DNA from: Allacma fusca
Lineage: Eukaryota > Arthropoda > Collembola > Symphypleona > Sminthuridae
NCBI GenBank assembly: GCA_947179485.1
Contig: OX359249.1
Coordinates: forward strand, 53,021,402-53,085,401
Direction: 5' to 3'
Length of the DNA stretch: 64,000 nucleotides
In this document: piece by piece, positions 415 through 33,516 of the stretch
Numbering within the stretch: position 1 is the stretch's first letter
Layout: each line of letters begins with the position of its first letter
The notes under the pieces: model-generated
The model's input: the letters and a program-made list of their open reading frames with translations, nothing else
Database searches by the model: none
Told to the model about the DNA's origin: nothing
Position numbers and translations under genes: made by a program

Positions 415-1355
415 CAGAGGTGTGGAATATTTTGAAATATTGTATCTAAAATAGTATTTGAAATACATTCCGTATCTTGTATTTGGTATTTTTCTCACCG
501 TAAATGTTTCAAGATATTTTGTATTTCGTATTTTTTCAGCACCAACATTTCTACTGTATTTTGTATTTCGTATTTTCAAGATCAACGAACGTTATGATAT
601 TTTGTATTTATTTATCTTGTACTGTAACGTTATCCATCTCGTATTCCAAATACAAAATACAATTTCAAAATACATAGCCCTGGCAACTGCCAAAGTTGTC
701 TATCACATGTTCAAACAAATATTTTAAAAGCACTAATTTGAAACATTTTGAAACCATTTCTTCAATGGTTTTGGTTTGTTGCAATACTTACTTATTGGAT
801 AAATACATTATATTCGTTATGCGTATGTATGTGGGGTCATAAAAAAATTAGTGACGCCAACATAAAAGCAGTGATAAGTTACCCAGGAGTTATAAGATTA
901 TTCGTTTCAAGGAAATTTTTTTCTGTATCTAGGGACATGTTATTTACTTTGATCTACACAGATGAACAGTTCTAAACTCTAATCACGCGCCTGTTACCTT
1001 ACGTTTCCTGAATAACTTTCGGATACCTAATTATTTCTTTAAATTGTCCAAGATACTGTGCTTGAGAGAATACAGTTGCATCTCAGACGTACACTTTGAG
1101 ACAAATTTGAAAGTATTTTCAATATGTATTTTGAATTTCAAATACGGTATTTTCATTTCGTATTTTTGTTTTTGTTGGAGGCAAAATATTTTATCTTGTA
1201 TCTTGGAAAAATTCCTACGGATATTTGTATTTTATTTTGTATTTTAACTAAGTTGTTCCTAGTATCTGTATTTTATGTTTGCATTGTAATGTTTCTGGAA
1301 TTGTATTCGTATTTTGTGTTTTAATAATAAATTTCGTGTATTTTCCACACCTCTG
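415..1355. mobile_element. Non-autonomous hAT-type element inserted in the LINE
   Basis: Both ends carry the 13-bp inverted repeat CAGAGGTGTGGAA (415-427 and, reversed, 1343-1355). They are flanked by ATCATATG (407-414) and ATCAGATG (1356-1363), an 8-bp target duplication with one mismatch. An 8-bp duplication and a CAGAG start are hallmarks of the hAT superfamily. The interior (941 bp in all) has no transposase; it is AT-rich and repeats GTATTTTGTATTTCGTATTTT-like words near both ends. The insertion splits the LINE reverse transcriptase: coding traces stop at its left edge and resume at its right edge. Confidence 0.85.
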
Positions 1356-6536: not shown

Positions 6537-9500
6537 ATGTTACTCAAATTCTTTGTACTTGCGTGGTGTGGGCTTGTGCACAGTGAGACGCTTATTATTT
6601 ATGAACACATAGGAAGACAAGGTATTTCAATTGTTATCATTATTATTTTATTGTACATTGGAGTGATTTAAGATTTTGTCGTTGAACTGTAAGTAACCCG
6701 CATGAGGAGACTAATAATTATTTTGATGCGTGAATTTTAAATTGAATTGTGTGTAAAGCTGATTGTGAGTGTGTAATGTAGGTGAGTCCCTTCAAATGTC
6801 AGTTGAAGGATGCACACCTTTCCCTGCCCACCAGAGCTGGAACGATCGCGTGTCATCTATTGACAACCAAGGGAAATGCATAACACTTCACGACAACGGA
6901 GACTGCACTGGAAGATACATTGACTTGCTTCCAGGGGATGCGAACCAATTTAATTTGTACTCGGCCGAATTCGATGACATGGCCAGTTCTGCCAGTCCTT
7001 GTACTAGAGACTACCGTGGAGTGCACAGTAACGTTGATGTTTTCCTCAAATGTCCAAGCATTTTAAGATCCTTCTAATTTCCTAGCATGTTATGTTCTCA
7101 AACAATTTTTACTATTTCTATGTAACAGTTGAAGACGGACTTTATTATGTTGAAAGTGCAGAGGATGATTCTGTAAGACTTTACAAAATAAATAACAGAT
7201 TCTTCGCGTATATTTTCAAATAATCTCAGAAATCAAGTAGACTCCCGATTCTCAATTTATTACCGCAGGCGCTAACAACAGAGCATCAAAGAGCAGAAGA
7301 TGTCATTTCGCAAGTTTTGATGGAGGACGCAATTGATGCTGAAACTCAAAAGTGGTCTATCTCGAAGTACAGTAAGTCCTGTAATAATAAAGTTTAAGCT
7401 TTCCTTGTTTGAAGTTACGCATTCCCCTGGAATTTGCTGAGTTGTATGAAACTTAAAACTATTACAGACAACTCGCCTAGAGTCAATGGTTATAAAGTGG
7501 TTCCAAAAAAGCACAAAATCAACCCGGTCACGACGAACATTAGAGATCCTGGTGGTGTGAAAAACATATGGCATTTCCTTCCTGGTCTTGGTGGTAAATA
7601 TATGATCTACCGTCATACTCACCGGGGACAAAATATCTGCTTGGCCAACAGAGGGTAAAATAATTAATTATTTATTATAATTTAATTATAACTTTGCTAG
7701 TACTACGCAGCTTGCAAGTTTGTTTAATAGTAGGTAACAAAGATGCTAGCCTATCCTACATGTAGGCCTATTTATAGGGTGCGAGCTATTTGCAGAAAAA
7801 ATGATAGGCAAAATAGGGTGCACTGTAATGTTAGTCAAACGGGACTCAGCTCTTTGGGACTGAGCGAAAACATAGGGAGTGGAGTGGGATTGGAGTGAGA
7901 GTGGGACTGATATGTATGAAAACGGTTGGGACTGAGACTGAGTGGGACTGACGGATTGAACTGATATAAGTGCATGGACTGAGCGGGACTGATGCGCGTA
8001 CAATATTAGGCAATTTTTAAATTTTCGCGCCATATATTAATGCCCAAGGATGAAAATTAGCGCCATTTTGTATCCTTGGGGACTGAGTGGGAGTTTGACC
8101 AAAGAGTTTCATTGGGACTGAGACTGAGTTGGACTTACACTGTAGATAGCATAGGAGTGAGTGTATCACAGCGCTTCTGGGACTGATCGGGAGTGGGACT
8201 GACGAACTGGGAGTTTGACTAACATTAGTGCACTGGTTTTCGCAGAAAAAATGCCTATAAAATAGGAATGCACGCCTGCATACACGCGGTCATATAGGCA
8301 TATATGTAGGCAGCACGAAAACGCGCTTGTATGAAGGCAAATATGTAGGATGTAAATACATATATACATAGCTATTTTCTCATTATGGAATAAGTTATCT
8401 CAATGCTAACCAAAACGAATTTTGAACGTTGGCTACGTTGGAATATCAGGCTTCTGCAGGGACATGTGAGATTTCCCATTCAAAATAATATCCATACATA
8501 ACTAAGTACCTACATATACATATATTGTCTGTGATTGCTCGATGCTTATCTACTTACTGTTACGTGCAATACGACCACATAATGCACATAATGCATGAGT
8601 AACATTAATTTTGAAGAAGTACTCACAATCAGTTTGTTTAAAAATATGATACATAAGAAAGTAACAACCAATTGCGAGTGTTTGCTGAATAATTGTTGCA
8701 TATGAGGGATAGCCTAATTGTTTTTTAAACTAATGCTATATGTCCATAATAAATTTGCTAAAATAAAGACAGCAAAATGTAATTATGAATTTTAATCAAA
8801 ATATAATTTAATTCTACAGTATGGGGTCCCATGTAGGAAGGGGCTAACACTTTCCGTTATCCTATATAGGCAGAAATGTAGGCACCGGCAAATGCCTACT
8901 TGTAGGCAAGGATATAGGCCTAGCAATTGCACAAATAGGGGAGAAGGAAGGCCCCTCCTAAACTGAATGTATAGGTAGGATGTAGGATAGGCAAAATCAG
9001 TTTAGCATCTTTGGTAGGTAATAGGTTTAACTTTAAGCACGGTGGCTTTCAATAAATGTGTCTTAAAGAAATTGTTGTGACACTTTTCCCTCAATTAGTA
9101 CGCTTAGGTAGAGATGCGTAAAGGAGAAGTTTTCAACCTTATTAGTATTGCAAAACGGTGTTGTAGCAAATTTAATGGGAATTCATTTGATTGTTTAGTA
9201 TTATGTAGTAAAAAAACAAGCCCGTTCGTGGCTGGTTTTCTACCCTAGAGCCAACGTTCAGATTGTTCGAATATTTGTCGAGACGTCCATGTTTATGAAT
9301 ATCCGGCCAAAATTTTACTACGACACGATTTTTGTTGTTTTGCAATTAAATTTCTAGAAAATGAGCTCTTAACTAACTAGACGTAGCCTGAGGGTGGCCA
9401 ACTCTCAGATGATTTGTTCTCGTCAAAAACATAATTTTGACGGCAAATTTTGGTAAAATAATCGATGGATTTGAATATCCCTCCCAAATTTCGACTAGGA

Positions 9501-11340
9501 TTTCAAAATTTCAGTCGAAACGATTTTAGGTTTAAAGAAATTAAACATTATTTTAATGATATTATAAACCGAGATGCGACATACAAGTTCAAATATATTA
9601 CAGTTTTTTTAATTTCACAATTGCTCCCAAAATGTGCTTTTTCGAAATTTTGAAGACTAATGAACATGGGTTTGATTTTTTAAATTCAACAACTTCATCT
9701 AAAGACAATTGGCTCTGAGACGGAGGGCCAAGTCTCAAGTGATTCCTTCTTGGCGAAAATAAATGTTGCAATTTTGGTTTATAAATTGGTGAATTTAAAT
9801 ATACCACCAAAATTGCAAATTGAAGAGCATTGCAAAAGATTTTGAAATTTTGAATGACATTATTTTAGCTTGTAGAGCATATATATTGCTTTTAAATGAG
9901 GTTTCAGTGGTCGAGACACAACATCTCATTCTTTCAAAAGTTATTGGGATTTTTCTCAAGGAGTCTCAAAATCAGTTTTTTCGAAATTTTGACCACCAGT
10001 TGACATGAATTTCAGATGTTATAATTTAGCCAACAACTTCATCAAAAGACTATTTGTCCTAGGTGTATAGGTCAAAATTGACAATTTTTTAAATTTGGGA
10101 TCAAAATTTGGTTCGCACAAGGTATTGCACTTCCTCTCACTCTCCTGCACTCTTTCCTTTCTGTTACACTTCTGGATTTATATAGAGTTTTTCATATCAT
10201 CTCCAAATACTTGTAATAGTAGGGAAACAAATACGTCTACGAATTGTTAATGGGCTAAAATAAAAATACAAAAATCTTCGTCAAATTTTTGGTTCTTTCG
10301 ACAACACTTTTTGACTTTCGAAAATGATAATAAATTTTCCAGTAAAAATTCTAGTTTTATTTATTTAGCTTATGTTGACCGCGGATACCAGCAAATATCT
10401 GCGGGCGGGCATGGGTGGGTTTCGTTATTCATACTTAAGAACGGACTGGCGCGGCCAATAATTATTGCAGACAGGAAAGTAAAGAGCAGTCCAGGGTAAA
10501 AATAAATTAGTTCTCCGGGTAATGTTTAACAACTGTGAGTACCGAGCCACCGAGCGGGCGGGTGGAAAACCTTTCTGCGGGTCCCAGCTCTACTTCCTCT
10601 CTCGTACACACACTTCCTGCATTACTCGAAGACTGTCGTACATAAGTACTTATGCGTGAACATAGCAGTTACTTATTTACCTTACTGCAGTTAAGTTTGG
10701 GTTTATTTAAAATATGATCTTCATTTCCATATTATATTGGAACTTGTCTTGCAACTTCCGATTTAGTTGACCTTCCCAGCACAATGGTGGGAGAGGAAGG
10801 ACCAAAGGGACAGCATTTAGTCAGAGTAGTTGTTGGCAAGAAAGCTATTTAGATATATTAATTCATAAGCCCACAAGTGTAAAAAATAGTCATCGCTAAA
10901 CTCGAACGTATGGCGGTGGGTACTACAATCTTTCATTTAAAATGAACCCATAAATACAAAAGCTTACTAGAGCTCTTGCACTCTAGCGCTGTTGTGGCCA
11001 TAAAGTCACTTTAGCTTAATGTTCCACTGAAGTCACCTACCCAAACGTACTTTAAATTGAGGCAAGATTGTTATCTTCGAAATAGAGCTGAAGGGCACAT
11101 TTTTAGTTGACACTTTCACAATCCTGACAATCCTGAATTGTGTTGTTTTATAAAAAAAACACATTATTATTATTATAAAAAAATCACGATGAATAGTATA
11201 AACACGTGTTACTCATTTGGCCTTTATCTTGACGATTCATCATGTTACTGTGGGTTTGCAGGTTTGGAAATCCCGTGGGAGAAACTTTCTGTGAACACAA
11301 TGCTAGAAAGCAACAATGGGTGCTTCGGAAGGCCGATTAA
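6537..11340 (+). CDS. Secreted crystallin-like/QxW (beta-trefoil-like) protein, six exons
   Basis: Predicted exons are 6537-6621, 6782-7027 (or to 7051), 7129-7172, 7269-7371, 7468-7654 and 11262-11340. All junctions are GT/AG and join in phase, giving about 247 aa (255 with the longer exon 2). The ATG at 6537 starts a signal peptide (MLLKFFVLAWCGLVHS). Exons 1-2 have the pattern of a beta/gamma-crystallin Greek-key fold: LIIYEH...G...L, NDRVSSID, GKCITLHDNGDCTGRY. Exons 3-6 contain ALTTEH, then QKW at the end of exon 4 and QQW in the last exon. Spaced QxW motifs are typical of ricin-type beta-trefoil carbohydrate-binding domains. Several cysteines fit an extracellular protein. The terminal exon lies past a 3.6-kb intron and is read in a different frame from the longest open frame there; it ends at TAA 11338-11340. 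Function is unknown; sugar or surface binding is an inference. Confidence 0.7.
7738..9013. mobile_element. Non-autonomous hAT-type element with TAGGC motif
   Basis: The terminal inverted repeat CAAAGATGCTA (7738-7748; reversed at 9003-9013) is flanked by GTAGGTAA (7730-7737 and 9014-9021), a perfect 8-bp target duplication. Length is 1276 bp including a nested element. Subterminal regions are full of TAGGC/GCCTA words (7749-7815 and about 8820-9000). No transposase is encoded. It sits in the intron of the secreted-protein gene. Confidence 0.88.
7826..8227. mobile_element. Non-autonomous hAT-type element nested in the previous one
   Basis: The 15-bp inverted repeat TAATGTTAGTCAAAC (7826-7840; reversed at 8213-8227) is perfect and is flanked by GTGCACTG (7818-7825 and 8228-8235), an exact 8-bp duplication. 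The 402-bp interior repeats GGGACTGA/GGGACTGAG at least ten times, clustered towards both ends. It interrupts the TAGGC-type element and is therefore younger. Confidence 0.9.
9390..10020. repeat. Degenerate dispersed repeat, about two tandem units
   Basis: Two similar blocks, starting near 9391 (GAGGGTGGCCAACTCTCAGA) and near 9722 (GAGGGCCAAGTCTCAAGTGA), are about 330 bp apart. Both are followed by sequence like GATTTGAATATCCCTCCCAA / GAATTTAAATATACCACCAA. Related words recur at 34553-34580 and 34800-34830 and at 47985-48020, so this is an old interspersed repeat of unknown type. Confidence 0.5.
10378..10590. repeat. GC-rich remnant, possible hAT-type right end
   Basis: A GGGCGGGC/GGGCGGGT-rich patch ends with GGGTCCCAGCTCTA (to 10590). 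Read on the other strand it starts TAGAGCTGGGA, like the TAGAGCTTCTG terminus of the element at 17962. No matching left end or target duplication was found, so it is probably truncated. Confidence 0.4.
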
Positions 11341-11526
11341 GCATCGATGCACCGTATTAATTGAGTCTCCTGACGACAAGGCCCGTACAACAACATTTTT
11401 TTGTTTGCTTGTTCGTTACATGACCAAAAGACAAATATATTGTACCTAATACCAGTAGCTTCAATCTTTAATAACCCTTGACGAACGAGTAATCTAATTA
11501 GAACTGACGAAGGTAAGAAGAAGAAC

Positions 11527-11532
11527 AATAAA
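11527..11532 (+). promoter_or_regulatory. Poly(A) signal AATAAA after the secreted-protein gene
   Basis: AATAAA lies 187 bases after the stop codon of the plus-strand gene in AT-rich sequence. It is the nearest canonical signal and would end the transcript before the convergent gene. Confidence 0.5.
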
Positions 11533-11548
11533 ATGTTTTTATGGAGTT

Positions 11549-11554
11549 TTTATT
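11549..11554 (-). promoter_or_regulatory. Candidate poly(A) signal for the MIF4G gene
   Basis: TTTATT on the plus strand reads AATAAA on the minus strand, about 350 bases after the minus-strand stop codon. With the plus-strand signal at 11527 it would make the two convergent transcripts end within about 20 bp of each other. Other AT-rich hexamers nearby are possible. Confidence 0.35.
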
Positions 11555-11904
11555 TGGCTTCCCAAATTCTAGAATATTTACAAGAGCGGGTGTGTACAAT
11601 AATTAATACAAGTACTGCTGATAGATTTAAGAAATGAGCTTGAATTTGAAAGGAAACCATGAAATGATTGCACAAACGAAAGTTAATTATTTTAAATGAA
11701 AAATAAGAACTCAGTTGGATTCAGTCAAATTGAATGTGGTTTGAGATCCAAAGAGTTGGTAAGAATCCAGATATCAACCACAGAGGCTTATTCAGCGGAT
11801 TACATTAATGTCAAACATAACAAATTTCCCGACTATATATCATCGTTATATATACTGCTCTGTATTTACAACAGTAGAGCGCATAATTATGTGCGGGTGG
11901 ACCA

Positions 11905-14288
11905 TTACGATGGATTTGAATAGTAGTACCTAACGGCAGATGCTGGTAAATGCCAATTAGCAGCATGTAGTTCTATTAATTGCATTAGAGTTTTCTGGAC
12001 ACATGGTGAAGATATCTCGATACCGGCCAAATGAGGTTTAATGCCAAGCAGAGCATCTCGCACAGCAGCAAGAATCTGCTTCATTTTGAGAGGAAACGTT
12101 CCTTCCATTTCCCTTCCAATTGATGTCATTATGGTAAACAGAGGGTCCATCTAGATGAACGAAGAAAACAAAAAATGCACCATACGAGAAGACTCATAAA
12201 TGTTTAAACGAAATGTCTCGAATCAAATAATATGCGGCATTAATGAAACAAATCCTTACTATATCAAAGGTGTGAAACAATGGTAATCGTAATGTCATTA
12301 AACAAGAATCACACAGAAGAGACAATGTGGCACTGTTCATCTCATCTATTGATTTCACCCCAGGCTTCTGCATTCGAATTATTTTTACCTACACATAAAT
12401 AAAAGAGCCAATGCAATAAATGTAAATCTATATGAGTATAGAAGCATCAAAATCTAGTACACCTAATTTCCTTACGGTGGAGGACAAAGATCTTGACCAT
12501 CAACTAACCTTTCCATATAGCGTTGATAAAAATTGCAAAAAAATGACCAGTTGCGTATTATTTTCGGCGTTGGCATTTAAGGTATCCTCATTTCGATTTT
12601 CCCCGGGATTTTGAAGAATCTCATAGTTCCTTATAGACTTTTTTTGTATTTGTTGGTAGGTAGCAAAACAGGTGTTTAGAACCGTTTCCATTACTGTCCT
12701 ATCCTTTTCGCGCTAATACAAAATAAAATAGCGTAATTTCAAAGAGTGAAATCATGGAGTATAAGATAAGTACAAACTAATCGGGCATTTAATTGAACAA
12801 AATCATTAAGCGGACTATGGTAAGCTGGGCACGAATTAAAAGCTAAACCAATTCTAGCTATTAAAAAATAAAAATAAATGAAGGCTGGTTTTTCAATTTT
12901 TAAAGAAGCCCACCTGAATAAAATAGAGGAAGATGTTTACTGCTGAAATGATCAACTGACTGGGATTTTCAAAAGTTTTTCCTTCTTTAGGGCTGATTTG
13001 TCGTACTGTCGAGTCTTCCTTCTCGGTAGTTTCCTCTTTGATTATTGCATTATTATTGCCGGAAAGCAATGTATTGAAAAGGGATCCAACCATATTGATT
13101 CTATGCCTTGCTGGAACCCTGTCCGCTCCAATCACAGCAGATGTAACAGATTCTTGAATCCCCTTCGGCCATTTCGTAATATCAAAATCCGAAGCAACTG
13201 AGATACTGGCAATTGAACTCGGAGATGACGCGAGATGGTACGAATTTGTTGTCGATCTTGGCGTGTAACTCTTGGATCTTTTTATCATAGAAGTTGTTCT
13301 GGCCGTATCCATTTTTGTGGAACTGTTGAAAGCATTCGGTAGTCCAAAAAACGTGTAGCTTTTCTGAAGCTGCGGAGGTGCATTATATTTAACTGAGGCT
13401 CCGGGATTTTGAGCACCTTCCTGAATTTCGGGATTCAGTGCAGGAAATGTTTCATCACATTTCTTTGGCAAGTCACTAAAGGCGTTCTTAGACGCTTGAC
13501 CTGAGATCAGTAAAACTTATTGGACACGTTTTGTATAGATGGTACAAAGATACATCATCAATATCAATGATGGAATTTTACAGTATAATTGCTAAAACTA
13601 AAATCGTACCATTAATTCGTAAGTTCTCCAAGTTCTGCCCCGTCATATCAATGTCTCGTTGCATGTTCAACAGCCGATTTTCAGCAGTGCCACCTTGTAA
13701 CGGCACGTCGTTATTTTGAAGGGGTGTTCCCCCCGAGTCTTCACAATCGAACCGAACGGTTTTACTGCTCCGTTGTACACGGTTTGGTATGTTCCCACTA
13801 GATTTGGATTGCTGCAAACGGAAATACTGACTCTCATCACTCTCGACCAGCGTTACAGGGGTTGTCTCCGACAAAGAGTTCTTATTCCTTCTTTTAACAA
13901 TTTGTACTGGTGGTTGCGGCTGTTGCTGAGGAATCAATTGTTGCTGTTGTTGTGCCCAAAGCTGGTAAAAATTGTTGACATTTCCCGAGGATTTCGACTG
14001 TTGAAGTGGATAGCAACCAGAAGTAGCTAAGATTGGGTTTTGATAATAGTCCGTGCTAGAATTCGAGTAGAAAGCAATTGACTGGGACCTTGAGTACGCC
14101 AGCGGGTTTCCTCGTGGGGAGTACTGAAACTCTTTGGCGTACACGTTGAACGGTCGGCTTGAACTGCGTAAAGATGTGGGTTGTGCGTGGTTGGAATTGC
14201 TCCCTCCCGGCATTCCGCCAAAATCCTGATTGTTGTCCAGTCCATTTCCACGCCCTTTCCTCACACCTTCAACATTTACAAATTCCAA
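11905..14288 (-). CDS. MIF4G-domain protein, CTIF/MIF4GD-like
   Basis: Minus-strand exons with consistent GT/AG sites and phases are 14288-13610 (5' limit uncertain), 13500-12914, 12712-12509, 12367-12260 and 12150-11905 (stop TAA 11907-11905), at least 607 codons. The N-terminal half is Ser/Gln/Asn-rich and probably disordered, with a poly-Gln tract (WAQQQQQLIPQQQPQ) and a repeated QQSKSSGN motif. The C-terminal part (from about exon 2) has helical MIF4G features: FLQFLSTLYGK, then a helix pair, and finally LMQLIELHAANW...YYYSNPS. The last motif matches the C-terminal signature of the small MIF4G proteins (LxxxIExxAxxW...YYYS). MIF4G domains scaffold translation-initiation or cap-binding complexes, and CTIF is about this length. 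Orthology is inferred; PAIP1 is an alternative. The true start exon lies upstream of 14288, because the first exon is closed by a stop just before and has no convincing ATG. Confidence 0.75.
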
Positions 14289-14894
14289 TTAGTGGGTTCA
14301 TGCATAGCTAGAATACCGAAAGTATATATTTTTTAAGTTTAGAATATATTCTGGAAAATCCAGTTGCCTTAGTATTGTTGGTATTTGGTGGCACTGACAC
14401 TGGAAACATTAAATGCTAAAAAGTACTGTTAGATTTATTGGAAAAAATGAAAAGTTACTTATACTAACAAGCAGATAAAATGCTTGTGGTTGACAAGAAG
14501 TGTTAAAAATAAAACAGAATGCTACACAAGCCAGGACACCAATAATTACGCTAGAGTAAGTATTTTCAATAACAACATTAACAACCAGGCGTCGTTCTTT
14601 TCTTACGACCTGAAGAAAGGGTGGGGAGGCTTTGGGGGAAAATGACGATGACTACAGAGGGGAGCGGATGGGTGTATGAGGATTATGACGAAATAACATT
14701 CTAAATAACTACAAGTACAAATCCTCGTGTTATACGCTGGCATTGGGTGGGTTGGACATCTTAAATGATTTTTTAAAGTAGGGGAGGGTGTGTACCATTT
14801 ACCAAAACTTTGATGACGTAATAAACGAGCTACGCCTCACTACATTTTTAGAACCTGAAGCCACAAACAAAGTTTACTAGTCCGAGAGAACGAC
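14289..14894. other. Upstream of the MIF4G gene; no exon recognised
   Basis: This stretch should hold the intron or 5' end of the minus-strand gene. I see no open frame with splice signals in phase. A G-rich patch at about 14620-14660 is present. Confidence 0.35.
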
Positions 14895-16183
14895 TAGTGT
14901 TTCTGTTCGGTATCGGGAATTCCCGAGGTTCCGGTTCGGTTTCGGTTCCGGTACGGTTTCGAGTCAACGCTTTAAAGAACCGTTACATTTCGGTCCGGTT
15001 TCGGGTCATCGGTTTATGAAATGTCAAATTTCGATCCGGTTTCGGGCAAGGATGGGAGTTCGAAAAAATATGAATTTAAATTCGAATTAAAATATTCAAG
15101 GCGAAGAATTCCGATTTAAAATACCTATAGCAATACTGAAAAATATAAATTCTAATACGGATTTAAATATTCTCGAGTATTCTTTCATTATGAATTCCGA
15201 TTTGAATATTTATTTGAATACTGCTAGTGTACTGAAAATACAAAGAATTTAATTACGGAAAAAATTCAACCTTAGAAACATGATATCATCAATGTTTTGG
15301 GAAGCTAGTTTCCCCCGCAGGTCATTAAGTATCAATTTAAGTGTTGAAAAATACGTTCAACGGATACTCGAACTCCAAAATTACTAATTGTCTTTTGGCC
15401 CATTTGTAGTTACCCAAAAAAAATCTTTAGTTACCTAAAAATATCTTTAGTTACCCAAAAAAATCTTTATTATCAACGATTTACATTACTTGAGTAATTA
15501 AATTGTAGGACAAACAATAGTTTTGAGCACAACCGTTAAAAGCCTCTGACAAGTGCTAATAATTCGCCTTTATTTTAGTTGTAAGTAAAAATTGCGACAA
15601 TTTTAAATTTATATTTATGTATGTACACTGAAAAATGAGAATATGCCCTTGAAAACAATACTTTATTTTAATCGGAATTCAGTAAAAATGTTTCGAATAC
15701 CAATTCCGATTCCAAAAAAGTTTTTGAATGTAATTTTGAATTAAAATACTTCCTGGGAATTATTTGGGATTCCAATATGAATTAAAATCCTCAAATTTTC
15801 GAATATAATTCCGATTCCGATTCCCATCCTTGGTTTCGGGTACAAAAATCAAAACCGAAAATTTTCTCGAAGGGTTTGTTAAAGCTGCCGTTTTGGATGA
15901 AAACGCGAAACTTGCATTTGGCCAGCATTTGTCAACTATCATTTGAAAAGGCGACACAATTTTGACTTCCGTAAAAATGAATCATATACATTTTCTGTCG
16001 GTTCGGAAAGGAACCGGAACCGGTTCGGGAACCGCTTTTATTTTCCGGATCGGTTCCGGGAAGCCAAAAATGTCCCGGACTCGATAATATCGGTTCCGGT
16101 TTCGGGAACAGAATTGGGATTTTTTTCGGTTCGGGAAAACGAGTCGGGTCGAGTCCATGTTTTGGTACCGTTCAGAAACACTA
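14895..16183. mobile_element. Non-autonomous hAT-type element with GGTTCCGG arrays
   Basis: The inverted repeat TAGTGTTTCTG (14895-14905; reversed at 16173-16183) is perfect and is flanked by AGAACGAC at 14887-14894 and 16184-16191, an exact 8-bp target duplication. Both subterminal regions (about 14920-15060 and 15990-16165) are built of GGTTCCGGTTCGG/CGGGAACC words. The 900-bp middle is AT-rich and repeats GAATTCCGATTT/AAATTCGAAT-like words. The open frames here, which read as Arg/Asn/Phe-rich, are by-products of the array. No transposase is present. Its TIR differs from that of the element at 17962 by two bases. Confidence 0.9.
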
Positions 16184-16419
16184 AGAACGACCTGCATGAC
16201 TTACTTGGTGGTCGATAGATTTCACGACATGGTTTGCTTCGTGAAACGCCGGAAGACTTCCTTTTACGTTCATCTGCCAAATTATATTAACTCATAAATA
16301 TATTCCATTGGAATATTAACACTGAATTGGCAATAAACAACGACAACAGCAAATTATAAATAAATGTATAAATTTATAAATAATAAATATGTATAATTTA
16401 TAAAGCACAATTATATTTC

Positions 16420-17003
16420 AGGGTCCCCACAAACAATATCGAATACTACTTTTCCCCTTTATAACAAAATTGATGAAGTTTCCAGACAAGACTACCTAAA
16501 ATATGCTGGGAAAAATATTCAAACAATCCCGTTTCTATACTGTGGCCACTGTCACATCTCAAGTATTTGAAGTCCGATCTGCATGAAAATTGGTCTGTAG
16601 TCTGCATATGATTTCATCGAGGGTATTTTTCACCGTAGCCAGAAATTCCGAAAATTCGAGTTTTTAGGATTTTCGGCGTATGGTATTGTTTACCAGTGTA
16701 CATGATGATAAACGATCAATCTGTAGTTATCTGTAAAAAAAACTTTTCTGATTACGGTGAAAAACGCCCTCGATGAAATCATATATGTAGACTACAGACC
16801 AATTTTCATGCAGACCGGACTTCAAATACTTGAGATGTGACAGTGGCCCACTTCACAGGTTCCCATAACAAGGGGTACTGATATAGGAATTGTTTGAATA
16901 TTTTTCCCAGCATATTTTAGGTCGTCTTGTCTGGAAACTTCATCAATTTTGTTATAATTCCGTCATGAGGTATGTCGTATTCGATACTGTTTATAGGGAC
17001 CCT
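16420..17003. mobile_element. Foldback element with inverted repeats of about 230 bp
   Basis: The left arm from AGGGTCCC (16420) through about 16645 is repeated inverted from about 16755 to 17003, including AACAAAATTGATGAAGTTTC, ACCAATTTTCATGCAGA and GATGAAATCATA. The ends pair as AGGGTCCCnAnAAACAnTATCGAATAC. The right arm carries a short extra segment near 16855. The loop (about 16645-16755) has no gene. Superfamily and target duplication are not clear. The two arms have diverged by several percent. Confidence 0.8.
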
Positions 17004-17338
17004 TCAGTGTTTACATGCAGTGTTTTTGATACCCCTCTGGATCCTCAAAGCACCAACATTTGTAGAATACTTACATGGATTGCTTTTAATTATCCACTGA
17101 CTAAGATATGTCACCTCCATGTTTCATAAGCATTTTTTTGAATTACTACTGCAAACTGTGAACGAAAAAACACTGTAACTGAACGTATAAATGGTTCATT
17201 GTGACTTGTGACACCAAGTTCCTCATCACAGTATTGCATCTTTAATGAGGACATAGCTCATATCTTTCACCATATCGCAGTAGGCATTCCAGATGTACTG
17301 GTTTGAGATACCCATCCCTGATAAGTTTGTAATGAGAA

Positions 17339-17700
17339 CCTATAAAGCATTCAACTCAGTGTCAAGACTTATACTACTTGAGAAAATCAAACGGAATTTC
17401 AAATTACTCTGACTTGAATGGAGTCCCTCTGGGGTCCATCCTAGGACCGTTCTTGTTCGTTATTTTCCTGAGTGACATTGATAGTCTTCTGTCTATTGAC
17501 TACATTGCGTATGCAGATGATTTTGTCTTGTTTATCTCAGATATATGTTTGACTAGTATGTTTGAAAAAATGTAACTGTGGCTTGACAAGCTCTAAATGT
17601 GGATGCAGAGTAACTCTCTAGTCATAAGTACTGCAAATTTTATAACGATATACCATCCTCTAAATAAACTTTGCATTGTGCAAAAAAAATGTGATGTAAA
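17339..17700 (+). pseudogene. LINE reverse transcriptase fragment (CR1/jockey-like)
   Basis: Traces of the palm domain are readable: KAFNSVSRLILLEKI (motif A), GVPLGSILGPFLFVIFLSDI and IAYADDFVLF (intact YADD active site), then LWLDKL and SNSLVIST. The pattern GVPQGSxLGPxLFxxxxxD is typical of CR1/jockey-type LINEs. The open part is 17378-17575; flanking pieces are in other frames. The order of motifs and several words match the copy at 43598-44133, so both come from one LINE family. Confidence 0.75.
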
Positions 17701-17961
17701 GCTGTGTATCCTTATGTAATAATTTACCTCTTTAAAATTGTAATTTGACCCGGTACCCCATATAACTGTATTGTTTACTTTACTTACGAACTAGTTCATT
17801 GAATGAATTGTTGCATGCATGCGGTGGACTATCCGGGTGATTCCAAAATACAATTGTTTTCAAAATCAGCTAAATCAAATGCTCACTGCTTTTGACATTC
17901 CCTGAACACAGCGAGATGTAAAAGGTCAATTTAACAGAAAATAGCGCCTGACTGTACCAAT

Positions 17962-18802
17962 TAGAGCTTCTGCCGGGGACAGGGACGTCCCGTCGGGACA
18001 CTGGACGGACCGGGACGGGACGTCCCAGGGGACAAAATAATTGTCCCCATGTCGTATTCGGGAAGGGACGGGGACAAAAAATTGTCCCCATTATATTCGG
18101 GACGGGACGGGGACAAAAAAATTGTCCCCGTTATATTCGGGACGGGGACAAAAAAAATTGTCCCTACTATATTCGGGACGGGGACAAAAACAATTGTCCC
18201 CATTATATTCGGGACGGGAGATGCTTTTTGGTCGTGTATATAACGGGACGGGACGAGCAAGCATAGCAGAACAAGGATAACGTTGTTCTGCTTAATGCTG
18301 TTTAATGCTGTTTAATGCTCATGAGTGAACTATTCTGTGAGCACTATTTCACCGAATGTAAGACATTCGATTTTAGGTTGTAGAGCATGAAGCTTGCTCA
18401 AAAAGTTAAGGAAGAATTTTGGGCTACGATTCTATAAATGTGTTTTTTATGTTTTTGGTACAAATAATTATATTTTCCTCATGTTCCGATTTTCGGTATG
18501 AGAATGTCGACAACTGAATGTCTGAAACGGTACAGGAATTTTGTTCACATGCCCCGATTTTCGGGACTGGGGACAACGTTTTTTACAAATTTTGGGGACG
18601 TGACGGGAACAAGCTTTTTGTCCCCATGTCCCGACTTTCGGGACGGGACCGGGGACAACGTTTTCATACATTTTTGGGGACGGGATGGGGACATGGTTTT
18701 TGTCACCGTGTCCCGATTGTCGGGACGGGACTGGGGACAAAGGTTTTGAAAAAATATCGGGACGGGGACGGGACAAGAATTTTGTCCCCAACAGAAGCTC
18801 TA
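17962..18802. mobile_element. Non-autonomous hAT-type element with GGGACGGGGACA arrays
   Basis: The inverted repeat TAGAGCTTCTG (17962-17972; reversed at 18792-18802) is perfect and continues as nnGGGGACA. It is flanked by GTACCAAT at 17954-17961 and 18803-18810, an exact 8-bp duplication. Left (17973-18260) and right (18555-18790) subterminal arrays consist of roughly 45-80-bp units containing GGGACGGGGACA. In the left array each unit pairs with a following TTGTCCCC, so each can form a GGGGACAA/TTGTCCCC hairpin. The 290-bp centre is AT-rich. Nothing is encoded; Gly/Asp/Thr/Lys-rich open frames here are array by-products. Confidence 0.92.
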
Positions 18803-18860
18803 GTACCAATCCATAAATGTCACGAATATCTCAATAATCCTCCTTTTACAACTAGTTAGC

Positions 18861-19330
18861 AGGGTTGACCAGACAAAACAGATGTTTAATTACGGATTAC
18901 AGATAACTCTCGTTTGAAACGATTTTGGGGATTACAATTTTTGGAGTGTGATTCCGTGATTATATTTAAAATGTATGGGGCGGTGAATACGGATAGAATA
19001 GATATATGGAATGTCTGATTACAGGACGACTGCAAAAGTACATTGGAGGATTTATGACTTCTTGAGATTTTCTTTACAACCATAATCTTTTCGCAATATC
19101 AGACTGCATCTCGAAATAATATGTTATAGTATGACTTTATAAGTCCTCTTAGGCGCATGACAGTACTTCTAATATCTAATTTGTATTTTGTTAGATTTCT
19201 CGGATTACATTTACTATTTTAAAGGGATTCCTGGGATTACAGATGAATACATTTTACATGGGATAACTGGAAATTTACAGACATTTTACATGGAAGTATC
19301 GGGATTACAGATTATATTTAATTAAAATGT
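18861..19330. repeat. GGGATTAC-rich repeat, probably a truncated element
   Basis: CAGGGTTGACCAGAC (18861) could be a hAT-like terminus. It is followed by dispersed GGATTACA words at about 18893, 18930, 19017, 19203, 19236 and 19302. No reverse-complement right end was found, so the element is probably incomplete. Confidence 0.45.
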
Positions 19331-20480
19331 ACTTCAATACCAAGAGATTGACTTCTAAACAATATACAAATGAAAAAGTAACCAACAGAATACCATTAGT
19401 GCTCAAACTCAGGCCATTGACCTAAGAACTATCTAATGACAACTTCACAAGGTAAGTACGACTTCACAAAGAAATAGCACCAAAATCAAATGATTTTCAA
19501 ATTATGCAACTTTCATCCATTAAATTCACTCCAAGGACCTCATTTACTAAGAATCAAGTAAAATCCAAACCAGAAACTTATCCCTATGAAAGACCATGGG
19601 TAACATGTAAGCACACGTTACAACTCCAAAATGTTAGTAGTGGAACTCGGTTCTAACAGTTTAACAAAGATTTCAACTGTCCATAAAAATGGATTGTTTA
19701 CACAATGACTTGGACGTTATATCCAAACACCGTTCATATTGGTCAAACCAAAAAATCATTGGCAGAACGCTTTAATGGTCATCGATTTGTTATTAGGCTT
19801 AAGAAACCTACACCAATTACATTTTAATGAAAGTAATCCCAAAGTAAAAAATGGAAAAATTTCAGCTTGTAAATTTGCATAATATATCAAGAGCGAAAGG
19901 GAATTATCAGGAATCCGACTGATTCATTAATATATTCTTATTCTAATAATTACTTCAAACTGGAATATCAAGTTTAGCTTCAGAAACCCCCATCATTCAT
20001 AAAAACCTCAAAACGATTTAGGCGACGGGTTTGACAATCACGGGGTTCTCTCAACCAATTAGGTTTCTAATGGCTTTTAAGATTTTAGTTTAAATTAGCA
20101 TAATAAGTTTTGCGGTGTTTTTAAAAGATCTGTGTAATATGTGATGGTAATTGTGATACCCCACGGCACGACACTACAAGTAAATGGTCCCATATTATGG
20201 ATTTCCCTGATAATATAAGGTCATTAATTCAATAATTTTAGTTTTTCTTTTAAAAGGATACATGTGTGTTGGATTCATCATTGTACTGATCGATTTTCTC
20301 AAATCAATTTTATTATTATTTTTTACTACAGATTGGGTTCCATTTATTTGAAATTCAGGTTCATGGTCATCTGACTCCAATTTTGTATCTATTTTTGTAT
20401 TACGAGGACTACACTACACAGCCAGCAATTGCTGGCTCAGCAAGACAAATGTAAACTGGGAAGGCAGAAAATAGTAGGAT
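19331..20480. other. Repeat-rich intergenic stretch with a PLE fragment
   Basis: Apart from the GIY-YIG fragment listed separately (19702-19827), I see only decayed AT-rich sequence. No intact gene is recognisable. Confidence 0.35.
19702..19827 (+). pseudogene. GIY-YIG endonuclease fragment of a Penelope-like element
   Basis: One short frame reads VHIGQTKKSLAERFNGHR followed by a lysine/proline stretch. This matches the core YIGQT-x-RSL-x-x-R-x-x-x-H motif of the GIY-YIG endonuclease carried at the C-terminus of Penelope-like retroelements (YVGxT...R...H). The frame closes at 19827, and no reverse transcriptase could be found upstream. It is distinct from the endonuclease remnant at 48.4 kb. 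Confidence 0.55.
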
Positions 20481-21092
20481 CAGTGATGGGCACCTCGCCT
20501 ATATATAGGCCCTATAAATAGGCGATAGTATAGGCGGGCTGGAAAATGCTAAAAAAATGTAGGCGAGGTTGACAAAAAAGGGTAGGCATTTTACAAATAC
20601 TAGGCTAGGGGATAGGAAGGCAAATATAAAACCAATTATCTAGGCAAGGAAAAGGAAGGGTGTCAAGTTTCGCCGATCATGTCAGAATATTATGTTGAAG
20701 GGTACCTATCGGTGTTTTTACAAGGCAATGAGAAAGACCATGCATGCATCAATGCATACCCTGACTAAACGTACGATTGGACTGCATTAAACGTTTTATT
20801 GGAATCTGGGTTTGGGGTTGTTGGCAAATACAGAATAAGGAACAATAGAAGTATTTTGTGCTCCCGTTGATAAATAAATAGAACTTATGTAGCACAAATC
20901 CACTGCACTTCAAAACTAGGCGAGGTGTTACCTGGGCGGTCAGAGAAAAATAGGCAAGGAAAAGGTAGGCGATGTATCTGCTTAGTTTTGGGCTGTAGGG
21001 AATGGCCATCCCTGTAGCCCAGTAGGTAGGGCTGTTTTTAAAATATTTTACAGGGAAGGCTGAAGGATAGGCGATCCACTTGCCCATCACTG
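20481..21092. mobile_element. Non-autonomous hAT-type element with TAGGCGAGG motif
   Basis: The 12-bp inverted repeat CAGTGATGGGCA (20481-20492; reversed at 21081-21092) is perfect and is flanked by AGTAGGAT at 20473-20480 and 21093-21100, an exact 8-bp duplication. Subterminal regions repeat TAGGC, GGCGAGG and AGGAAAAGG words (20500-20660 and 20920-21070). No transposase is present. The minus-strand open frame of 134 codons (20749-21153) crosses the right end of the element and so is not a gene. Confidence 0.9.
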
Positions 21093-21377
21093 AGTAGGAT
21101 GCAATAGCTGGCTGCGCAGTGCTGTGGCCTTGGATGTATCTAATAAAGCGCACGTAAATTTGAATCTCAAAACCGTATTACACCAAGGGGAAAATGTAGA
21201 CGAAGACGGCCCACTCTTTCAAATTAGAAGAGAGGATATTCGCTAGCTGTTAATGCCGACTTTGTATATTTACTGACTTGTAAATCGATTACGAATGGAC
21301 CCACTTATGAAATCCGTTTTTGTAAACCAGTGTTTGAGTTCTGAACTAACCTGACTCCTAATTAAAAATTTGACATT

Positions 21378-22376
21378 ACATTACATTACGTCAAGTTGAG
21401 AACCCGAAACACTTGTACCACCTATTCATGGTCAAGTAATCCAAAAATTACTTCGAGAAAGTATTACTTGAACTGAAAATTTCAAGTTCGAGCAAACTTG
21501 AAAGTTCTTCACAATCGATTTTATACCGTCCAATCCTGATAGACCATTAACTTTAAAGGGAATACAATTCCCTATTCGTATAAGTTTCGTCATAGGGCAA
21601 GACTAGACATTTAATTGTCTTGACATTTACTTACCCTCGCCTGATTTCGCGTATGGGCAGTTGTATGTTAATTCTTCTACAACAACGTCAAAACACAAAG
21701 TCACGGTCATAATCATAACCATTAATACTGATCAGTAAAGTCGACTCCTGGGAGATAATATGATACATTTCGAGGAAGTATTTCCAACTTGAATTGCTTT
21801 AAATAATAAAATTATTTTGCTGATCTCTGCACAAGTTACATTTGAGTTCAAGGTCTAGTTTCAAGTTGCGCTGCAGTGTTATACTACATTTGAATTTCAA
21901 GTTGCGCTTGAGTGTTATACTACATTCGAATTTCAAGTTGCGCTTTAGTTAAACTTGAGTTCAAACCCGAATTTCAAGTCACACTGAAATTCTGTATTGA
22001 ATTGATGTGAAACTTGAGCGAAACTTTAATTTTAACGAATTTAAAGTTGCATTTTAGTTGCTTGCTACACAGAAATTCTCGCTTGAATTTCATGTGAACA
22101 TCGATTTCGAACTGAAATTTCAAGTTGGACATGAGTTACACTTAAGTTCAATGTTGAGCGTAAGCTCGAGTTTCAAGTCGCACTGAAGTTTAAACAGGAA
22201 TTCCAAACTACAAATATGTTACACCTGAGTTCAAACTCGAAATTCAAATTGTACTTGTGGTTTAGGATACACTGAAGTTCAAAGAGTTTTAAGTGTGAAC
22301 TCAATTTTACAGGTTTAAACTGGACTGCTAAACGAACATTTAAGTTCAAGTTAGGTGTTAGATTGTCCACACTTAC
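21378..22376. repeat. AACTTGAA/TTCAAGTT-rich repeat region
   Basis: The words TTCAAGTT and AACTTGAA recur dozens of times. A roughly 42-bp unit containing TTGCGCTnnAGTGTTATACTACATTnGAATTTCAAG is present in about two tandem copies near 21868-21945. The same word set recurs at about 27000-27265 and 27970-28035. No inverted terminal repeat or target duplication could be fixed. It resembles the subterminal arrays of the hAT-type elements but is not proved to be one. Confidence 0.5.
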
Positions 22377-22499
22377 GTATGTAGATCAGTTTGAATTTTG
22401 AGAAAACTGTGTACAGTTGATTTTGCCTTTAAAAGTCATACAGAGTATTTTGATACTCAATTAGATCATTTTGCCTCTTCACCGACGAAATAGTACAAG
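22376..22499. repeat. Partial copy of the long-TIR element family
   Basis: GATCATTTTGCCTCTTCACC (22464-22483), followed by GACGA, matches the right end of the element at 32634-33516. The upstream GTATGTAGATCAGTTTG (22378-22394) matches its subterminal repeats. The left end is missing. Confidence 0.7.
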
Positions 22500-23385
22500 T
22501 ACAGTAATAATTATACTCGATGAAACAATATTCGGCATTATTATGTCCATTACAGCTTTTAGAGCGGAATGAATTTTCGAGTCATTTTGTTGAATTTATC
22601 GCTCAAATGTGAAAGGCAAGTTGCAATTAAATTGTTACAACTTTTTATAGTGCAAGTACTTGTATTTGTTATGAAAAATACAAGTAATTGCAGAGTATTT
22701 GTATTTTGCGAAACCTGTAATTGCGAATATTCATTTTGTTATTTCTATTTAATTGGGCAGAAATTGAACTTGCACCGAAGATTGCAGTTGCCTGGTGTAA
22801 AGTAACCATAATTGAACCGAACTACCCAGTTCAATTAGTAGTTGTTGTTAACTTGCAATTGACAAGAAACACTATTGCAAAGTATAAAATTGATGAAAAC
22901 TGGACAAAACGAATTCACTTGATTTACAGTGCACTCTCGCTACAAGAGACGCGCTTATACGGGATCTAAACATGTAGTCTCAACTCCCATTTACACAATG
23001 CTTAAGACTATCCACATAAGGGTTAATGTGCATTATGGAGAAAATTGTCCAGTCTCTGCGTACGCACTAAATGTTTTTGAGACGAAAAGAAGCTGCAAGT
23101 CCTTAATTGTAAGTCTATAATGTAATGTCATTTGGTTGTATATCCTGACGATATGGGCCTGACGAACCAATTAGACCAGACAATTCAAACTTTTTATTGG
23201 AACAGATTATGTAAAAAGTAAAAAAGCCTGTTGATTTTGAAGGATATCAGGCTATATGTTTGAACTCAGAAAATTAAATAAGGTCAGGTATAAACAAATT
23301 CAATTACATCTCTTATATATTCTTATATCTCTACTGAAACATGTTAAAAATTTGTCATATTTTCCCCCTAAAAATATACATTCTA
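22500..23385. other. Unassigned AT-rich DNA with a diverged MITE end
   Basis: At 22927 the sequence CAGTGCACTCTCGCTACAAG, preceded by TA, resembles the pogo-type MITE at 61865. Similarity (CTCCCATTTACACAATG at about 22983) extends to about 23000 and then fades, so this is a decayed copy. No gene is recognised in the rest. Confidence 0.5.
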
Positions 23386-23690
23386 CCCGGTAGTGGAAAA
23401 AGTATCCTAAGAGCAGGACCAATTGTCCAACCATAAAAGGGTGGCCAACTGCCAGTATCACCTGCCCAACTGAATTTAAAAAAAAATTCGACCCATAGTC
23501 GGTACGATTTGTATCTGCCCAACTCAATTTTTAAAAAAATTCGACCCTTAGTCGGTTCGAAAATTGTTATCTGCCCAAATTAGTCATACTTGCCCAACAA
23601 ATCCATTTGCCTAACTGATGAGGGTCACTTGCTCAAGTATCCTGGATACCAGGATACCGAACTTTCTCTACTACCGATTTCTACCGATTC
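23386..23690. repeat. Inverted-repeat element with tandem CTGCCCAACT units
   Basis: The ends pair imperfectly (CGGTAGTGGAAAAAG...ATCCT on the left with its complement around 23655-23690). Inside are two tandem units of about 55 bp beginning CTGCCCAACTnAATTTnnAAAAAAATTCGACC (about 23462 and 23516), then degenerate TGCCCAA words. A CTACC flank is seen on both sides, but no full target duplication. Confidence 0.55.
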
Positions 23691-23949
23691 CGAAGACAAC
23701 TATTTAGATGTGGTGACTAATAGGTTCCGAGATATTTGACGAAGTCATCACTTAAATTCAAAAAGTGAACGCAAATTGGGCAGACAAGACAGTCCAGTGG
23801 TAAATGGTAAAGTACATAGCTGCTTCAACCTTCAGGGAATTGGCAGAGCCTACGACACTTGTCTGTCGCGGAGAGGATTTTCAAGGTTCCTCTCCATAGC
23901 ATACCTAAGTTAAGCAAATTGTAACTGTAATCTGGCTTAATATCTAAAT

Positions 23950-24108
23950 CAGGGGTGGATTTACGGGGTGGCTCACCACCAGTGTAAAAAATTTAAGGCC
24001 AGGGTAAAAAAATGTTGACTAAGGCTATCAGTTTGCATGTGTGAAGGTCGATAAATCTATTTGGAGGGTGAGGGCCAGGGTAAAAACTATTTTATTAATC
24101 TACCCCTG
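23950..24108. mobile_element. Short hAT-type MITE, 159 bp
   Basis: The ends CAGGGGTGGATTTA (23950-23963) and, reversed, CAGGGGTAGATTAA (to 24108) form a 14-bp TIR with two mismatches. ATCTAAAT flanks the element at 23942-23949 and 24109-24116, an exact 8-bp duplication. GGGCCAGGGTAAAA-like words occur twice inside. Nothing is encoded. Confidence 0.88.
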
Positions 24109-24572
24109 ATCTAAATGTATAGTGGATGCCAAAAATGTCTAACTGGAAGTAAGTGCCTATCGCTGAGTTTCTTTTACAATAAAGCAATTATTATTGTCAC
24201 CTCCGCTCCAACTATCGTGTCGAGTTGGGGGCACCACGCACAAGTTGCGGATGCTTCAATAGGGAATTCCCTATTGCTGGAAACACAAAGCTCCTGATAT
24301 CTAGTTCATACACAAACATTACGTTAAAATAATCCTTCTTACTAAAAGCTTCATCGTAGTAGACTAGGACGAATCATTTGCATTAAGTTTGTTTCCAAGA
24401 TTATTTATATTTATTTATTTATTGTTACATAAAAATTCCAGAGAGATTCATGGAAGGGTGTAATGAATAATTCAAGGGTCAGGGAGGACTGCAAGGGAGT
24501 ATAGGGACTTTTAAATCAAACGCTGCATCTCACTGGCATAATACTTTTGCTCAGAGTTCTAGCGAGACGAGT

Positions 24573-24795
24573 TGTGTTACGCACGCCTCTCTTGCCTCCG
24601 ATAGGCTTATGCTTGTTACCATAGAGTGACTGTCAACCATCGTTTACTTGCCGACCATAGATTGACTCTCGAGTTTCAATTTCTTAATCATGTTGCAAGA
24701 TATTTACATTGCATATGCATACATACTTTTATTTCGCGCTGAAACGCACAAAAAATTATCGGCCAATCGCAGGCAAGAGAGGCATGCGTAACACA
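24573..24795. repeat. Inverted-repeat element with arms of about 34 bp
   Basis: TGTGTTACGCACGCCTCTCT (24573-24592) and the following TGCCTCCGATAGGC are mirrored by GGCCAATCGCAGGCAAGAGA and GGCATGCGTAACACA (24761-24795) with a few mismatches. The spacer is about 155 bp. No target duplication was fixed. Confidence 0.65.
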
Positions 24796-25960
24796 CCTGT
24801 CCTTAATTGGTAAAGTGCCACCCTGGCTTGTCTTGACAGTACATGCATGTTTTTTAAATGCGACCAAACCGAAGCAGAGCAGAATTCGCCTAAGTTCCAA
24901 GTCATTTCAAGCAACCAAAAGCAGGTTTTACGTCCTAGTATCGTAGTAGTGATGGTTTTCGTCCTTATGTTCATGCCATGTTGAAGCAAAGCGGTTCATT
25001 TCTTTATTACATTTATGCAAAAAAATGCTTTAAAATAAAAATCAAAGCATTTTTTTTCTTTTTTGTTAACTTGAACATGCTTAAGTTATAGTAACCAAAA
25101 GTGTTCAACTTAATTCTGACCATGTCAACAAAAAATAATGCAATTCCAGAATACAAAAGATAAAAAAGCGTTTCACTTTGAAAAGTAAAAAAGAGAACAG
25201 AAATACCGCAATGATAAACAAGTTACCAACAAGCTGTTATGCTGCATATTGGAATTTGAATGGTTAATTCGAATAAACTACCACTTGATTTTTATGTACA
25301 CCTTTGAATATTTAGTATAGCGTGGCTAATATGATCAGTCGTCATCCTTTAATCAATACCATTAAATTCAAACTTTGGGTAAACAGTCCATAAACGCAGG
25401 TCAGACATTAAATGCATTAAAATGATGCAGCTGTCATGCATTGATAGCGTTCTGGATAGTGCAAACAATTTGAACCTTCCTTGGTCAAAAAATTCAAACG
25501 AAGTAACAATCAAAAACCTAAGTACATATGTTTAAATTTGTTTGTAAATTATCAATTTTTGTAAGCCGTGCCTAAATGTTTCACGTCCACGTGAACAAAA
25601 CCTCCAAAATATAGCCTAAACATACGCGCATATACTTGACTGTCTCATTTAACCATATTAATAATTAGCCCACTTGATTTAAAAAACAATTCGCCACTGG
25701 TGCTCGACTTTATCGAGAGAGTCGCTGTCATTAATATATTTAAATTACACTGGAGGACTGAAAACAGCCTTTCTTGCAACAATACTAGCGACATAATGTT
25801 GAAACGCTTCTTTTCCTAGAATCAAAGCGTTCATTCAAAAATGTTGTGCCCAGGTCTAATTATTTTAGTAAAGTTACCCAGCATAATGCATATTAACTAG
25901 GATAATTATTTCAAAACAAGACTGACTGACAAACATTTGGTCTGCTTAAATAGTTTAATT

Positions 25961-32633: not shown

Positions 32634-33516
32634 TATCGTCGGTGAAGAGGCAAAATGATCTACGTGCATGATCGATTAGAATCAAAATGATCTACTTGCA
32701 GTTTCACTAAAGGCAAAATGATCTACTTGCATTGAATTTTAAAAGCAAAATGATCTAGATGCAGCTTTTCCTAAAAGCAAAATGATCTAGATGCAGCTTT
32801 TCCTAAAAGCAAAATGATCTAGATACAAATTATAATAAAAACAATATAAGTAAACACATTCTAATGCCGGTGTACAAAAATGCGAGGTATTCAAAATCTT
32901 TTATATATGCATTTAATTCCCCAATGCCTCCATTTCTTTCTTTCAGTAACATTGAAAAAAAAAGTTTTCAATTATGATTTAACATTTGAAAATGATTCCG
33001 AATATTATGATAATGGTGATTATCGTAGAATACGATTTGAAAAAACTCCAAGTTGAGAATTATTAAAGGGAAAACCAATTCAATGTGCACACTAACACAT
33101 GAGCTTACTGTGATTTTGATTCGTCTTTTAATTCGTCGATTTTAAAATAAATGAATGTTGCAGTTTTCGTAACTAAAAATGTATTAGATGCAATACGTGA
33201 AATTAACTTTAGTTGCCGGAATGATCCTTAGTAATAGCAAACCCTTCAGAGAATATTAACCCACAACCCTAGGTCAATTACAGTCATGGTTAGCCCTTAT
33301 AAGCCACGTGTCCTCCTTACAGATGCTAGTTTTCTCACAAAAAAAATTAGACCAGCACTTAGATCATTTTGCTTTTAAGGAAAATTGTATGTAGATCAGT
33401 TTGCTTTTAAAGAGGCTTGCACCTAGTTCATTTTGCCTTTAGGGAAAAAGTTATGTAGATCATTTTGATTCTAATCGATTATGCACCTAGATCATTTTGC
33501 CTCTTCACCGACGATA
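32634..33516. mobile_element. Non-autonomous element with long TIRs of AAAATGATCTA repeats
   Basis: TATCGTCGGTGAAGAGGCAA (32634-32653), continuing AATGATCTA, is mirrored at the right end (to 33516) and is flanked by TA on both sides, so a TA duplication is likely. The arms are about 100 bp of good match and up to 190 bp in all. They consist of tandem units of about 32 bp containing AAAAGCAAAATGATCTAGAT GCAGC-like sequence, four to six per arm. The 500-bp centre is AT-rich and non-coding. A second partial copy lies at 22376-22499. Superfamily unknown. Confidence 0.82.

Follow-up and report, generated by a model that had tools for sequence, protein, structure and literature searches.

Arrays of family-specific words, mainly on the same strand at both ends, beside the mirrored terminal repeats of hAT elements in Allacma fusca

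Our analysis concerns hAT transposable elements in 64,000 nucleotides of the genome of the collembolan Allacma fusca (contig OX359249.1, positions 53,021,402 to 53,085,401; this whole stretch is called the window below). We consider it probable that the short elements here, dependent ones from several hAT families, share one design: a terminal inverted repeat (TIR) at the tip, followed in most of them by an array of a short family-specific word at which the transposase would dock. The TIRs are mirrored, and the array words lie mainly on the same strand in most families; part of this bias is common strand composition. The elements are new, and the architecture (hAT with subterminal repeats) is of a known kind. 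The genome we searched comprises 392.7 Mb in 91 contigs, the window being 53021402-53085401 of its contig C5. According to an excerpt of the paper on assembly qeAllFusc8.1 (95 scaffolds; PMC10427803), the window would lie on chromosome X1. Other published systems are likewise quoted from excerpts of the papers cited.

The window contains eight hAT elements, listed here with their TIRs, target-site duplications (TSDs) and arrays.

415..1355, + strand: E1, non-autonomous hAT, 941 bp; TIR CAGAGGTGTGGAA; TSD ATCATATG/ATCAGATG (one mismatch); GTATTT array.
7738..9013, + strand: E2a, non-autonomous hAT; TIR CAAAGATGCTA; TSD GTAGGTAA, exact; TAGGC array; hosts the nested E2b.
7826..8227, + strand: E2b, non-autonomous hAT inside E2a, 402 bp; TIR TAATGTTAGTCAAAC; TSD GTGCACTG, exact; GGGACTGA array on a single strand.
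14895..16183, + strand: E3, non-autonomous hAT; TIR TAGTGTTTCTG; TSD AGAACGAC, exact; CGGTTC array; the span includes the nested E3b.
15047..15832, + strand: E3b, hAT inside the left part of E3, 786 bp; TIR CAAGGATGGGA; TSD GTTTCGGG, exact; weak ATTCCG array.
17962..18802, + strand: E4, non-autonomous hAT, 841 bp; TIR TAGAGCTTCTG; TSD GTACCAAT, exact; dense CGGGAC/GGGGACA array.
20481..21092, + strand: E5, non-autonomous hAT, 612 bp; TIR CAGTGATGGGCA; TSD AGTAGGAT, exact; TAGGCG array; deletion derivative of a 3954-bp hAT at locus L059.
23950..24108, + strand: E6, non-autonomous hAT, 159 bp; TIR CAGGGGTRGATT; TSD ATCTAAAT, exact; no word passes the word-scoring criterion.

The original prediction had listed seven hAT elements with short TIRs of the form YARNG and 8-bp TSDs. 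All seven were verified, six with an exact TSD and E1 with one mismatch. The eighth, E3b, lay outside that list and was found by a blind screen of the window (YARNG TIR, at least 10 of 14 TIR bases, TSD with at most one mismatch). Besides E3b the screen returned the seven known elements and one chance-like candidate (19825-25006, 10/14), nine candidates in all; it returned one in the reversed sequence and a mean of 0.4 in block shuffles. All eight elements thus have YARNG-form TIRs (a form that the screen behind E3b required); the inverted repeats at their tips measure about 11-15 bp, and seven of the eight have an exact TSD. The assignment to the hAT superfamily is upheld by the length of the TSDs and the form of the TIRs throughout the set, and by the match of E5 to both ends of an element bearing the hAT dimerisation domain PF05699. 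None encodes a full transposase, as had been claimed: no stop-to-stop frame of 150 aa or more is present in any of them. Without E3b and one TSD copy, E3 measures 495 bp. The further claim that most elements amplify a different motif needs a correction: E2a and E5 have the core TAGGC in common, and E6 has no word by the scoring criterion.

How strong are these arrays? We compared the best k-mer (k 5-8) of each single element with 100 dinucleotide shuffles. E2b and E4 beat every shuffle at every k. Small margins separate E1 (k 5 and 7) and E2a (k 7) from all of their shuffles, and E3 exceeds them at no k when tested with the nested E3b still inside. Most array words are strongly enriched in fold terms over the remainder of the window (E6 was not part of this comparison). 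E5 and E6 exceed the shuffles at no k, and tandem repeats are common in the window. One might therefore take the arrays for microsatellites that have no relation to the TIRs next to them. This reading is largely contradicted, and we find it hardly credible. TIRs and first array bases occur together hundreds of times in the genome. Patterns made of both match 669 times for E3, 188 times for E4 and 243 times for the right end of E2a (at most one mismatch), and reversed control patterns match 0 times each. Among the first 100 places listed for E3 there are 35 convergent end pairs, 13 of which span exactly 495 bp, the modal size. All 35 join one TTCGGTATC-type and one AACGGTACC-type end (a single CTCGGTATC end is counted with the TTCGGTATC type).

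The copies of E2b also speak against microsatellites. We scored 40 of 680 candidates from a DNA search and read 28 loci; the window copy is one of these and another is truncated at the left. The TSD is exact in 25 of the 28. Arrays absent from most copies had been named as grounds for giving up the original prediction; the E2b array is present in all 28, the check in other families having covered the TIR and the first array bases. GACTG occurs 11-13 times per copy, in each of the 28 on a single strand and never on the opposite one, and GGGACTGA is present 8-9 times in 26 copies, with 4 and 6 occurrences in the remaining pair. The words vary less than other columns (23/2344 versus 170/9119, p 0.002), a weak result in that substitutions are common to several copies. 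With both strands counted, the 25 TSDs have T at position 2 and A at position 7 in 50% each; the TSD consensus of Ac-group hATs is nTnnnnAn.

E2b inserted precisely into E2a, as is shown by another E2a copy with an empty site and a single GTGCACTG where E2b sits in the window. The E2a copy L026 (1405-2661), empty at the window's position, has an E2b-family element nested at a different site (TSD with one mismatch); E2b-family elements have entered E2a at least twice. Beside E2b copies we also noted two non-autonomous hATs with very dense arrays (L002, 2522-3057, AACTGA 25 times; L013, 66-1093, ACTTGA 29 times).

Elements that carry a transposase show the same design. Transposases of this superfamily abound in the genome: a profile search with PF05699 placed all 150 scored places, of 860 candidates, above the cut-off. 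We extended 16 transposase regions (12 plus four more). Both ends and a TSD were recovered in 11 of these, and all 11 have arrays at both ends. The TSD is exact in L059, L060, L062, L063, L065, L070, L035 and L036 and has one mismatch in L064, L068 and L043. The ends of L060 and L063 came to light only under relaxed search settings, and L043, whose left TIR deviates from YARNG, was located through its similarity to E5. The words of the 11 are TAGGC, AAGGCA, CGGATA (L062 and L063, one family), AAACGG/ACGTTA, CAACAA, CACTAC, TAGAGG, GAAGGA, GAAGG and TAGGAAGG. In 10 of the 11, word density (for words picked from the element ends) falls from 34-50 per kb within 100 bp of the tips to 0-2 per kb at a distance of 300-400 bp, and is 0.8 per kb in mid-element. 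The arrays of these 10 are thus confined to the outer 300 bp, which again is not what unrelated microsatellites would look like. The TIRs of E3, E4 and L062 are loosely alike (TA..G.TTCT) and all three elements have CGG-containing words, at most a lead.

The remaining five extended regions gave less. L053, L067 and L069 have words downstream and a second end was not found; L053 has only GAAGGC, 8 times on one strand. In the extended regions of L061 and L066 neither an array nor ends or TIRs were found, and these two (frames of 566 and 433 aa with the hAT dimerisation domain) are possible domesticated genes. Matches to PF14372, which bear on the RNase H-like core, are below the cut-off in L062 and L060; in the protein search with L062 we scored 89 of 687 candidates.

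One window element was paired with a transposase: E5, with L059, a 3954-bp hAT with a PF05699 match (E 4e-19). Bases 1-375 of E5 match the left of L059 at 82%, and bases 411-612 match it to the right tip at 84%. By this alignment E5 is a deletion derivative of L059. Its left array aligns with that of the parent position by position, gap-free over 198 bp. Within this stretch 2 of 52 word bases have changed (0 of 40 when the parent's words are used) versus 20 of 134 (22 of 146) spacer bases, p 0.04 and 0.005. Other candidate pairs were rejected. The matches behind a pairing of X2 and X13 with L043 and L038 are X2-like and X13-like neighbouring sequence just outside the ends of those elements, and the match of E2a to L048 is internal, with no E2a TIR word in L048.

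It has been suggested, in the original prediction, that arrays grew within non-autonomous copies, and such growth could reflect selfish extra docking sites or slippage. The arrays that stand out most clearly in the shuffle test do belong to dependent elements, E2b and E4. Local tandem growth does occur: the right end of L035, here a transposase-bearing element, holds about seven tandem units that are nearly identical. Set against this, E5 retains the left array of its parent without a gap, the E2b arrays hardly vary in 28 copies, and transposase-bearing elements reach similar word counts. We hence regard growth in dependent copies as quite improbable, and the data do not support the suggestion.

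Do arrays follow transposases? Array 5-mer similarity is correlated with transposase identity, scored on at most 170 C-terminal residues (Mantel permutation test, rho 0.58, p 0.004 for ten complete elements; 0.48, p 0.012 for nine). The 11 pairs that are more than 35% identical have a mean array similarity of 0.36, and the 34 others one of 0.16. Most of the signal comes from a five-member clade with overlapping words: GAAGGA (L035), GAAGG (L036), TAGGAAGG (L043), AAGGCA (L060) and TAGGC (L059). Within this clade the order of words is not strictly that of the tree, one node of which is poorly supported (0.55).

The strand on which the words lie was assessed with 6-mers common to both ends, in direct versus inverted sense, with TIRs excluded. 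After merging L059 into E5 and L063 into L062 there were 21 families. The direct sense is favoured in 19 of them, the exceptions being X2 and X28; the log2 value exceeds 0.6 in 14 families and is below -0.6 in none. Random segments of equal length, drawn from this window only and overlapping one another, have a mean of 0.08 (SD 0.54), with 54% above 0, 13% above 0.6 and 8% below -0.6. The rank test gives p 1e-6 and the sign test p 0.001 (20 families). Several words occur on both strands with one strand favoured (CGGATA in L062, GGGAC in E4).

The window also holds a TIR element that is not a hAT (32637-33513; TIR CGTCGGTGAAGAGG, ATAT flanks), whose arrays of 32-bp units are clearly mirrored (left 6 and 0, right 0 and 3). 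Mirrored arrays can therefore exist and be detected. A similar end was seen by eye near 22463-22492.

Several observations weigh against the docking arrays and the strand rule as we describe them. When the best 6-mer in the 900 bp downstream was taken for each of 37 transposase places, only 10 rose above the 95% shuffle value; of these 10, three or more are not family words (poly-A at L058, AT-rich sequence at L068, a neighbouring element at L038). The result of arrays in all 11 therefore holds for completed elements. A BED finger (PF02892) was recognised in L065 only, the exons of other elements not having been assembled; three frames of E5's parent yielded none, and the Hermes-type domain PF10683 is below the cut-off in L064. 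Within the 150 scored PF05699 candidates no transposase partner was found for seven of the eight window elements, and a long E3 copy (C1:21485054-21488851) has no transposase match among the places listed. The expected pairing of each array type with one transposase clade was hence seen once, for E5. At E5's right end conservation does not clearly favour words over spacers (4/26 and 3/22 changed versus 33/184 and 34/188). The sister transposases L064 and L068, 54% identical, have quite different words and little common array content. Co-evolution of arrays and transposases, as originally proposed, thus stands in outline, given arrays in all 11 complete elements and the Mantel result, with a signal mostly from one clade and one sister pair to the contrary. 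Finally, mutation of inner sites in Hermes caused no strong loss of activity (PMC10368747), which suggests that not every site is needed.

As for strand, taking one top word in each of 22 elements by z-scores that carry no family-wise null gives 17 direct, 3 inverted (X2, L064, L036), one tie and one element without a word. Both senses exceed shuffles in many elements, which makes the same-strand layout a bias. Composition-matched shuffled ends also favour the direct sense because arrays skew strand composition. Measured against shuffled ends (k=6), 16 of 18 elements have a direct/inverted ratio greater than 1, and only 7 exceed 1.5 (E2a, E2b, E5, E6, L062, L068, L070). The effective number of families is also below 21, since those of the five-member clade share ancestry.

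What could such a design do? By analogy with Hermes, Herves and Ac, the word is a putative docking site of the transposase's DNA-binding finger. The array would offer many sites to a multimeric transposase, and the word may drift along with the finger. A same-strand layout would make the left end unlike the right, and pairing would then join one of each. We raise, with more doubt than conviction, a same-strand rule in which words run mainly head-to-tail through the element and the two ends are read in opposite senses. It would serve as a code of end identity that favours left-right synapsis over that of two left or two right ends and is kept while lineages drift their words. We keep our estimate low because the composition-corrected ratios are modest in many elements.

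One could also imagine that, through this layout, the transposase reads a single strand of DNA that has just been replicated, and that the two ends are thereby activated on one daughter chromatid. With same-strand arrays, the words of both ends would sit together on the parental strand or together on the new one; with mirrored arrays they would not. The Ac transposase of maize indeed has strand-dependent affinity for hemimethylated sites, with chromatid selectivity (PMC5371812). By our own count, though, 14 of 20 family words contain no CpG, which makes the methylation route of Ac a poor fit for most of them. We consider this alternative improbable.

Known systems resemble ours in part. In Hermes of Musca domestica, BED fingers bind short sites in the subterminal region, inward of the TIRs (PMC10368747). 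These are 4-bp AAGT/AAGC sites, 17 and 14 at the two ends, whereas the words here are mostly of 5-8 bp and family-specific. The same paper gives LE-STR2 to STR7 as antisense and RE-STR1 to STR5 as sense. We infer that Hermes sites lie on the same genomic strand at both ends, because both ends are numbered from the tip. Two left ends of Hermes synapse antiparallel, an arrangement unable to support transposition (PMC10368747). Maize Ac/Ds has an 8-bp TSD, an 11-bp TIR and transposase-bound AAACGG hexamers in about 200 bp per end, and its dependent copies retain parts of the ends (PMC3260210). L064 has AAACGG among its words; Ac/Ds differs in being a single family with a single word. In Herves of Anopheles gambiae a short motif repeated at both ends suffices for transposase binding, and its authors point out that bound sequences vary between hATs, giving specificity (PMC3143072); it differs in being one element with several motif copies. 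Kat1 of Kluyveromyces lactis has subterminal hexamers, and its authors note that polarity differs between the two ends (PMC4763223), but it is a domesticated transposase working at the mating-type locus. On direction, the closest that these excerpts come is a single sentence on Hermes and another on Kat1. The papers listed from the open subset of PubMed Central (with subscription papers and repeat databases outside the search) include no recognisable survey that compares array direction between hAT families, most of them having been seen as list entries only; one of these, PMC1562414, contains the words 'same orientation'.

Elsewhere in the window, a fold-back element lies at 16420-17003; its inverted arms measure 72, 66, 40 and 30 nt, and it shows no clear TSD. 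The regions 39.2-39.7 kb, 53.5-54.0 kb and 55-59 kb contain a reverse-transcriptase frame (PF00078, below the cut-off), a DDE_1 frame (PF03184) and long frames that may belong to a BEL/Pao element.

A single animal genome thus carries many hAT families with one architecture and differing words, and in one clade related words go with related transposases. If our interpretation is true, the host holds a natural series of related words, from GAAGGA to TAGGC, for decoding finger specificity. With these families one can test how finger specificity and arrays change together, and for what reason a hAT element needs two unlike ends. A possible general answer to the second question lies in the mainly same-strand layout found here and, as we read one paper, in Hermes.

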